From an uncultured Verrucomicrobiales bacterium (GTDB lineage Bacteria > Verrucomicrobiota > Verrucomicrobiia > Verrucomicrobiales > Akkermansiaceae), in the NCBI GenBank assembly GCA_937969495.1, contig CALBVY010000015.1, forward strand, positions 1 to 64,000: a stretch of DNA of 64,000 bases. Direction: 5' to 3'. The position numbers and the translations under genes were made by a program. The notes under the pieces are model-generated. The model was not told the origin of the DNA and did no database searches. It saw only the letters and a program-made list of their open reading frames with translations. How positions within the stretch are numbered: position 1 is the stretch's first letter; the number at the start of each line of letters is the position of its first letter. Positions 30,882-33,180 of the stretch are shown one piece after another.

Positions 30882-31460
30882 ATGAAAAAGACTATTCCAT
30901 TTGCTACAATCGCCATGCTGGGGCTCTCCTTGAGCCCTATTCATGCCGATGATGCTACTACCACAAAAGCTGCTACTGAAGCAGCCGCAACCGTTGAGAA
31001 AATCCCTGTCTACATCGTTGTAGTCAGCGGCAAGGGCTGAGGCGTCGGTGCAAAAGCCAGTTCGGCGATTAAAGCACAAGACGGCGTTAAAAACGTTCTC
31101 CTCTCCGGTTACCGCGCCACCGTTCTCATGAACGACGGCAAGGAACTCGATGAAGCAAAAATTCAAAAAGCCATCACAGGTAAAGGCCTAAAGATGACTT
31201 CCTTCGCGAAGTCTGAAGCCATTGTTCCTGATATGGTCTACCAGCTCAAAGTATCTGGTGGTGGATGATCAATCGATGCTGACAAGGCCCGTGTGGCCTT
31301 AGAAAAAATGGATGGTATCACTGCTGCTTATGTTGCTAAAGACGTTGATATTCACTTAGCAAAAGGTGCTTCATTTAACGAAGAGGAGATCGCAGAGATC
31401 CTTAAGAAGTATAAAATGACAGTGCGTAGCTCTAAGAAACTCGATACTCTACCATTCTAA
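30882..31460 (+). CDS. Candidate secreted selenoprotein with two HMA-like domains and two in-frame TGA (Sec) codons
   Basis: Reading from ATG 30882 to TAA 31458-31460 gives 192 codons, interrupted only by TGA at 31038-31040 (residue 53) and 31266-31268 (residue 129). A signal peptide covers 1-22 (ends PIHA). Two similar domains follow: about 41-110 with VVVSGKGU53GVGAK, and about 114-185 with LKVSGGGU129SIDADK. Each continues like the beta-alpha-beta-beta-alpha-beta HMA fold (AI..QDGVKNV; AL.KMDGITAA). In HMA proteins this loop reads GMTCxxC, so each TGA sits at the first Cys, while the second Cys is Gly or Asp. The protein has no Cys. SECIS-like hairpins follow both TGAs and a strong terminator follows the gene. 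Periplasmic metal or redox chemistry is inferred. Confidence 0.85.
31043..31083 (+). promoter_or_regulatory. SECIS-like hairpin after first TGA
   Basis: Downstream of TGA 31038-31040, CGTC (31043-31046) pairs with GACG (31080-31083), GTGC (31048-31051) with GCAC (31074-31077), and GCC (31056-31058) with GGC (31064-31066). The apical loop is AGTTC, with G second. The loop begins 19 nt after the TGA, inside the 16-37 nt range of the bacterial SECIS model. The upper stem is short (3 G-C pairs). Confidence 0.6.
31284..31300 (+). promoter_or_regulatory. SECIS-like hairpin after second TGA
   Basis: AAGGCC (31284-31289) and GGCCTT (31295-31300) form a perfect 6-bp stem with loop CGTGT, G second. 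The loop begins 22 nt after TGA 31266-31268. Stem length, loop size, G position and spacing all satisfy the bacterial SECIS consensus and closely match the first element. Confidence 0.7.
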
Positions 31461-31507: not shown

Positions 31508-31551
31508 CCCGCTCGCCGTCCACTTGTGATAGCGAGCGGGTTTTATTTTTT
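31508..31551 (+). terminator. Intrinsic terminator of the selenoprotein candidate gene
   Basis: CCCGCTCGC (31508-31516) pairs perfectly with GCGAGCGGG (31532-31540) and is followed by TTTTATTTTTT. It lies 48 bp after the TAA on the plus strand, showing that the candidate gene is its own transcription unit. The T-run overlaps the 3' end of the convergent gene. Confidence 0.9.
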
Positions 31552-33180
31552 ATGGACAATGAGTAAAAACGGTGAAGTCTCACGGTGACCATTTCGCACA
31601 TAATGAGACACGTTAAACATCTCACCGGGTAATTGCTCCACCCATGCACTAACTTCCGCTGCTTCACGCTCACCACCTATGTGACCAGGGTAACACATCA
31701 CACTCAACACTCCCCCAGACTTCAAGCATGCGGTAGCCTGCTGCAGGGCATCTAAGGTAGTCTCTAGCTGTGTGATAATTGCCTTATCCGCACCCGGAAG
31801 ATACCCTAAATTAAACATCACACAGGCTACCTCCCCCATCAGCTCCTCGCAAATGATCTGCTTCATCTCAGCGTGATTTTTCTGATGTAGTTCCACCGTA
31901 TTCATCAGCACACCTTCATCGGTAAGGCGCTGGCTCGCTGAGGCTATCGCTTGTTCTTGAATATCAAATCCAATCACTCGACCACTATCCCCTACCAACG
32001 ACGCTAGAAAAAGAGTGTCGTGACCATTCCCCACAGTGGCATCAATCACCACATCTCCCACACATACTACCTCCGCAACCAAGTGATGCGCAGTTTTAAG
32101 CAGATTCCCCGTCGAAATAAGACCACATGGGGGTGATAGAGGAAACGGAATATTCAGCTCAGGATCAAGGTCAACTCCACCAGTCAGAAATTCTGCAAAA
32201 TGTTTTGCTACAGCAGGTGCCATTAATGCGCCTTTGGATCCCAGACCGTTAAAAAATCCCAACTTTCCATTGTTAGGATGCAAGCCAATGACAGGCCGGC
32301 TACTCCTAACAATAGGACGCACCCCAGCTTCTTGCGCCACTACTTCCACCGGTAGATCGCACCAAGACGCTAATTTACTTAACACCTCAGCACGCCCTTC
32401 AGGTGTCACTTCAGAATTCAGATTTTCCCAATCATAAGTCGCACCCACCTTCCATGTACCATCACCACGAGCAGCTAACCAACCATCAGCATGATAACGC
32501 TCGTGCTCAGGCAGCCCTTTGATTTTCACCGTAAGGATTTCTCCCTTAGCGCAGCGGTGTGGTATGTCACCAAACCAGCCCCTACCACGAAGTCCATAAG
32601 CGCCCTGACACAGAATAATCTTACCCGCCGTGATACCTTTCCAGATCACACCATGTGAGAGAAACTCCGCATCCTGTTCGTGAAAATCATCTTCTCGATA
32701 GGCATTCTGACTCATCAATCTTTGCTGAACTGAGGTGAGAAATTTTTGACTATCTAACCAAGCCCCACCAAACATCTGTAGACCTCCATACTCAGACTTC
32801 AGCCCCCCTTTATCAAAGGACTTTTCCGCTCCCCACTTACCATGCTGAGCCGCCTTCCCCCGCCATTTTTCTCGCTCCCGCTTTGAACGAAACAAGCGAA
32901 CCACATCACATGCATGGTAAAACTTCTCTCCTGTCTCCTGCTCCAGCGATTGATAGAATGTTTCCGCAACTGGCAGATATTCATCCTGTCGCCATGCTGG
33001 ATTAAGCCCCTTACCAGTTAGAGGAGTCACTAAACCCGCCGCGACACGCGATGAGGAACCTTGATCTTGCCGATCCACCACCAGCACCTTCTCCCCTCGT
33101 TGAAGAAGAGCCAAAGCTAACGTACTACCAGCTATTCCCTGCCCAATGATGATCGAGTCATATTCCATGCGCGCTGACAC
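31543..33180 (-). CDS. Fused FAD-dependent oxidoreductase and MnmM-type methyltransferase (likely tRNA U34 modification)
   Basis: The 545-aa product has two parts. Residues 5-345 are a DAO-family flavoprotein with dinucleotide motif IIGQGIAGSTLALAL (11-25), acidic VVDR, SSSRVAAGLVTPLTG (42-56), and a late GLGSKGALMAP FAD-contact segment. They resemble the MnmC oxidase. Residues 356-545 are a SAM methyltransferase with VIDATVGNGHDTLFLA (378-393) and FNLGYLPGADK (456-466), hallmarks of the YtqB/MnmM family that methylates nm5(s2)U34. In E. coli MnmC an unrelated methyltransferase precedes the oxidase. Here a different one follows it. The likely role is cmnm5U to nm5U to mnm5U conversion; this is inference from the fusion. 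Confidence 0.8.
   Translation of the reverse strand: MSARMEYDSIIIGQGIAGSTLALALLQRGEKVLVVDRQDQGSSSRVAAGLVTPLTGKGLNPAWRQDEYLPVAETFYQSLEQETGEKFYHACDVVRLFRSKREREKWRGKAAQHGKWGAEKSFDKGGLKSEYGGLQMFGGAWLDSQKFLTSVQQRLMSQNAYREDDFHEQDAEFLSHGVIWKGITAGKIILCQGAYGLRGRGWFGDIPHRCAKGEILTVKIKGLPEHERYHADGWLAARGDGTWKVGATYDWENLNSEVTPEGRAEVLSKLASWCDLPVEVVAQEAGVRPIVRSSRPVIGLHPNNGKLGFFNGLGSKGALMAPAVAKHFAEFLTGGVDLDPELNIPFPLSPPCGLISTGNLLKTAHHLVAEVVCVGDVVIDATVGNGHDTLFLASLVGDSGRVIGFDIQEQAIASASQRLTDEGVLMNTVELHQKNHAEMKQIICEELMGEVACVMFNLGYLPGADKAIITQLETTLDALQQATACLKSGGVLSVMCYPGHIGGEREAAEVSAWVEQLPGEMFNVSHYVRNGHRETSPFLLIVHKK

Follow-up and report, generated by a model that had tools for sequence, protein, structure and literature searches.

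Proteins that combine the heavy-metal-associated (HMA) fold with selenocysteine (Sec) are already on record. The closest NCBIfam model, NF041115 (UxxU_metal_bind, a putative mercuric reductase), describes an HMA-type selenoprotein, NF045683 (MerT/CopZ fusion-like heavy metal transport selenoprotein) is likewise a metal protein of the HMA type that contains selenium, and the HMA-type selenoproteins in the literature include a UxxC cation-transporting ATPase. In the Global Ocean Sampling data a Sec-containing MerP is listed with two sequences and no cysteine (Cys) homologues there (PMC2398784, Table 2); by its name this is a marine HMA-type selenoprotein, known here by the listing alone, and an overlap with the family described below is possible. 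Here we describe a gene at positions 30882-31460 of a 64,000-nucleotide stretch (contig CALBVY010000015.1, hereafter the window) from an uncultured Verrucomicrobiales bacterium, which almost certainly encodes a protein with two HMA folds and one Sec in each. Its features, including hairpins of the selenocysteine insertion sequence (SECIS) type, are the following:

30882..31460, + strand: gene for the predicted double-Sec tandem HMA protein, ATG to TAA, 192 residues
30882..30950, + strand: putative N-terminal signal peptide (MKKTIPFATIAMLGLSLSPIHA), assigned by eye; predicted local distance difference test score (pLDDT) low to residue 35
30999..31223, + strand: HMA-like domain 1, approximately residues 40-114, from the AlphaFold model, pLDDT mostly >90
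31038..31040, + strand: TGA codon 53, predicted Sec site 1 (SGKG-U-GVG), invariant in 30 aligned homologues
31052..31070, + strand: SECIS-type hairpin of site 1; its apical loop, AGTTC, includes G23-U24 (numbering starts at the U of UGA)
31233..31439, + strand: HMA-like domain 2, approximately residues 118-186, from the AlphaFold model and a profile match to CopA HMA domains
31266..31268, + strand: TGA codon 129, predicted Sec site 2 (SGGG-U-SID), invariant in 30 aligned homologues
31283..31301, + strand: SECIS-type hairpin of site 2, AAGGCC-CGTGT-GGCCTT

The window protein reaches none of the NCBIfam cut-offs. NF041115 is a single-domain model of 74 positions with a UxxU motif, whereas the window protein has two domains with one Sec each and no second U or Cys; it lacks the UxxU motif, its score is 14.4 bits where the cut-off is 95, and 28 of the 30 family members match the model weakly (best E 4.7e-9). 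NF045683 differs in being fused to the MerT membrane part, and two members match it marginally (best E 0.041). MerP, CopZ and the N-terminal HMA domains of CopA (TIGR02052, PF00403; structures 1osd, 2qif and 1p6t) resemble the protein in fold and in the position of the metal-ligand loop, and MerP also in export, but they carry GMTCxxC with two Cys where the window protein has a single Sec per domain. TIGR02052, the MerP model, gave no match for the window protein (cut-off 92.55 bits) and matched 17 members, with a best E of 2.1e-5. NF045648 (MbdU metal-binding double selenoprotein) did not match the window protein and was not among the 25 most-matched families, beyond which a further 13 families were matched more rarely. 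A 2026 inventory that covers 119 selenoprotein families of prokaryotes has no entry with tandem HMA domains and one Sec per domain (PMC13188914), and no description of a double-Sec tandem HMA family was found in the open-licence literature searched. A first, sequence-only reading of the window had suggested that it could be a new selenoprotein family; with neither a cut-off nor the inventory matched, we regard the family itself as new, but HMA selenoproteins as such were known (NF041115, NF045683), and the novelty is a tandem, one-Sec-per-domain, Sec-only family.

With TGA read as U, positions 30882-31460 translate without interruption into 192 residues followed by TAA, and the only stops are those at codons 53 and 129, just as the sequence-only reading had it. 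One such frame alone is little proof, since the window holds 36 TGA read-through frames of at least 150 aa in a frame count, and it is conservation that decides. When 98 relatives were searched with the protein, 31 gave a match, and every one of these had exactly two in-frame TGAs. A second search, based on an alignment and covering 387 Verrucomicrobiales genomes, recovered full-length members from 50 genomes at E values of 4.5e-33 or lower; these, too, have exactly two TGAs without exception. The two codons fall in the same two columns in 30 of 30 aligned homologues (27-66% identity to the window protein), with neither Cys nor any other sense codon at either column, and no Cys-form orthologue was found in the relatives searched; homologues with TGA or Cys codons were what the first reading had proposed to look for, and all that were found are of the TGA kind. 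The spacing from U to U is 75-77 residues, and both U53 and U129 belong to the few invariant residues of the 30-row alignment, the others being M1, G50, G52, A62, G68, G76 and G126. The ratio of nonsynonymous to synonymous substitution rates (dN/dS), where defined, is largely 0.0-0.3 in all three segments delimited by the two UGAs, which indicates mostly purifying selection, as strong after UGA2 as before. Decay of the frame after the first TGA, which the same reading had named as the sign of a pseudogene, is thus absent.

Among named strains the gene is carried by Roseibacillus persicicus KCTC 12988, Rubritalea marina DSM 17716 and Rubritalea profundi SAORIC-165. In a phylum-wide sample of 388 genomes the protein family is present only in the window's own taxonomic family; of two further matches there, one (G302) proved to be an ordinary HMA protein with Cys and a terminal TGA, and the other (G263) is a stop-free match within an 847-aa frame. 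No homologue was found in the viral contigs and plasmids searched.

A hairpin with a five-base loop lies at a constant distance 3' of each TGA. The stem of site 1 pairs columns 15-21 with 27-33, counted from the T of TGA, and 86.7% of the cells in the alignment are paired; two-sided changes occur in three of the seven pairs, with a covariation of 0.360 compared with 0.213 for shuffled alignments. At site 2 (columns 18-24 with 30-36) the corresponding values are 92.9% paired cells, two-sided changes in six of seven pairs and a covariation of 0.532 against 0.222, and slid versions of this stem reach at most 0.18 in covariation and 60% in pairing. At least four contiguous base pairs form in 28 of 30 sequences at site 1 and in 29 of 30 at site 2. 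A G is found within the first two loop bases in 30 of 30 sequences at both sites (60/60), and GU occupies loop positions 2-3 in 56 of 60. G23 and U24 of Escherichia coli fdhF matter for SelB. Counted from the U of UGA, the GU of site 1 occupies positions 23-24, the same placement as in fdhF (MG1655 record). An Rfam scan of the region returned chance matches only and no SECIS family.

The genes needed for Sec insertion, whose search had been suggested together with the original claim, are all present in the same assembly: SelA (E 2.3e-124), SelB (636 aa, 308 bits, above the cut-off), SelD (G000:C22:25238-26164, L040) and a tRNA-Sec with anticodon TCA. selA occurs in 47 of the 98 relatives and in 28 of the 31 carriers of the gene; the remaining three carriers, all draft assemblies of hundreds of contigs, have selB, so that no carrier lacks both. 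Fisher's exact test for the association between the gene and Sec use gives 5e-9 with selA alone and approximately 1e-12 counting the three selB genomes, values that ignore shared ancestry and for which the non-carriers were tested for selA and only some of them for selB. SelD has an in-frame TGA of its own (SCAGUASK); the hairpin ACGCAGGTTCTGCGT lies 3' of this codon, pointing to SelD itself as a selenoprotein.

The HMA assignment is in agreement with profile, fold prediction and structure search. AlphaFold, run on the window and named-record sequences, predicted a disordered, signal-like N-terminus and, behind it, two beta-alpha-beta-beta-alpha-beta units with good confidence (mean pLDDT 83.7, predicted template modelling score 0.73), with strands (E) and helices (H) at E40-49, H55-64, E69-75, E78-83, H91-100 and E104-114 in domain 1 and at E118-126, H130-141, E146-151, E154-159, H167-175 and E179-186 in domain 2. 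The top Foldseek matches were of two kinds, tandem HMA domains (CopA, ATP7B) and single domains (MerP, Atx1, CopZ), with target-normalised TM scores of 0.68-0.78 to MerP and CopZ. The family profile matched CopA (1p6t) with E=6.6e-8, and PF00403 matched 17 of 30 members (best 1.2e-7); the window protein alone had no Pfam match. The two HMA-like domains of the first reading were thereby borne out. Its placing of the TGAs where HMA proteins have GMTCxxC can be refined: U aligns with the first Cys of CxxC, and the second Cys is missing, the motif being GxGU or similar. Cys at U+3 was found in 0 of 60 domains, where A, G, S, P, T or D stands at site 1 and T, K, E, D or I, mostly T, at site 2. Of the 30 members, 18 have no further Cys at all, and in the others the mature part is almost free of it, so Sec is the only conserved soft ligand. 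In a tree, domains D1 and D2 fall on separate branches (with few columns, the deep forks are unsure), consistent, as far as sequences tell, with an old tandem arrangement in which duplication or fusion preceded the spread of the family. The N-terminus, judged by eye, resembles a signal peptide of the Sec export type ending in IHA, and two homologues, L024 and L026, carry a lipobox-like motif (LASC/ATSC) in its place.

Given that both UGAs are conserved, that two SECIS elements covary and that the Sec machinery is complete, we infer with high confidence that the protein is a real double selenoprotein with HMA folds, as the first reading had proposed in preference to chance nonsense. In the mechanism that we envisage, UGA53 and UGA129 would each be decoded as Sec by SelB and tRNA-Sec, each through its own downstream SECIS hairpin, and the protein would be exported to serve as a soft-metal ligand outside the cytoplasm. 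Its two selenolates, one per domain, may together bind a single thiophilic ion held between the domains, e.g. Hg(II), Cu(I) or Ag(I), or pair as a diselenide in the metal-free state; metal might be scavenged or relayed by this selenolate pair. The two Sec always occur together and hardly any other Cys is present, which is as expected if they work as a pair. A role in soft-metal binding seems somewhat probable to us, with a small chance left for roles that are neither metal binding nor redox. A more specific proposal, for a metal or a redox site alike, in which two selenolates from separate HMA domains of one exported protein share one site, as a bis-selenolate clamp or reversible diselenide with no sulfur counterpart among orthologues, could equally well turn out right or wrong.

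Several observations weigh against this picture. The absence of the second Cys of CxxC would weaken binding by a single domain. The site-1 stem of the window species is short, with 3 contiguous base pairs; its 48-nt stretch nevertheless folds better than shuffles (z -2.4). Measured against synonymous recoding, folding energy is no more than modestly low at site 1 (mean z -0.54; control positions -0.31) and clearly low at site 2 only (mean z -1.39), so that the case for SECIS elements rests on covariation and not on energy. Finally, there is no conserved operon partner: in the flanks of 28 loci, the window's own excluded, neighbours are common only within a genus, and the context therefore points to neither mercury nor copper.

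The alternative with an appreciable, if lesser, chance of being correct is that the double selenoprotein is a redox enzyme built on a re-purposed HMA fold, such as a periplasmic peroxidase or a diselenide reductase/oxidase, in which the second Sec would be the resolving residue. Redox enzymes make up the majority of selenoproteins (PMC13188914), one known selenoprotein family has a diselenide within a redox motif (Shchedrina et al. 2007, cited in PMC2398784), and the missing second metal Cys, the obligatory presence of both Sec and the near lack of other Cys would all fit such an enzyme. Both domains have, however, kept the HMA fold and the metal-loop position, the fold is not thioredoxin-like, and no redox partner gene adjoins. 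It is improbable that the UGAs are mainly selenium-dependent switches, with short products ending at UGA53 or UGA129 functional when selenium is low. Recoding in E. coli is described as partial, 30-40% (PMC4513850), so truncated forms must occur, and two serial UGAs would lower the yield further; yet selection is equally strong after UGA2, and a product cut at 53 would consist of the signal peptide and one strand only. Reading of UGA as Trp, Gly or Cys without SelB, through a code change either general or local, is very improbable: Gly is common around site 1, but general reassignment is excluded because, of the 42 ATG frames in the window that span at least 180 aa, 12 end at TGA, which is also the terminal stop in two homologues, in line with what the sequence-only reading stated, and the full Sec machinery co-occurs with the family, with SECIS hairpins at both sites. 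A pseudogene or sequencing error, i.e. an ordinary HMA protein with two nonsense codons, could appeal to the abundance of read-through frames in the window, but two TGAs common to 50 independent genomes including named strains, the low dN/dS after both codons and the SECIS covariation leave it virtually no chance, and we consider it ruled out by conservation.

Other HMA proteins with related features occur in the order. The window's own genome encodes, besides the Sec protein, a Cys tandem HMA protein (G000:C45:27136-27726; L083:1300-1890, + strand) with a putative signal peptide, two HMA domains and a similar length, which differs in having GMTCGSC and GMTCTSC, no TGA and a separate branch in the tree; it has matches in 18 of the 98 relatives. 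Three frames on the - strand (L123:705-1040, L124:235-579 and L125:752-1090, in genomes G629, G635 and G006) are single-domain HMA proteins of 112-115 aa with one in-frame TGA, a signal-like N-terminus and the motif GLVUAGGC or GMTUGVGC; none reaches an NCBIfam cut-off, and L123 and L124 have a perfect 7-bp hairpin (AAGTGCA / TGCACTT) 3' of the TGA. They are probably another HMA selenoprotein family. Genome G633, which also holds a member of the window family, encodes at L126:779-1342 (- strand) a second tandem HMA protein, distinct from that family, in which TGA occurs twice (GLKUASGCPP, GLKUAGGCPP); this protein scores 78.9 bits to NF041115, under the cut-off, and reaches no other NCBIfam cut-off either. 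Most of these single-domain and tandem candidates have a clear hairpin after the TGA. Judging from these sequences, Verrucomicrobiales seem to build several exported HMA selenoproteins.

In the window, the double-Sec gene stands alone and the downstream gene is convergent. Between the two lies:

31508..31550, + strand: likely intrinsic terminator of the double-Sec gene, a strong hairpin followed by a T-run, -21.7 kcal/mol, z -6.0

The consensus scanner, which accepts loops of up to 8, did not list this hairpin. The convergent frame (31543-33180, - strand, 545 aa) looks like a fusion of an FAD-dependent oxidoreductase and an rRNA-methylase-like part, and several relatives encode the methylase-like part separately, in a frame of approximately 197 aa.

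Most known selenoprotein families have Cys forms, on which discovery pipelines depend, and deep-Sep, by its own statement, may not identify selenoproteins without Cys homologues (PMC12013277). As no Cys form was found for the window family, it is of the kind that current searches would miss, and it suggests that more Sec-only families exist. Selenium is an excellent chemical ligand for mercury and other soft metals. The family can be tested directly, since named strains carry the gene, and in marine bacteria it would place selenium in the classic fold of metal chaperones, outside the cytoplasm.
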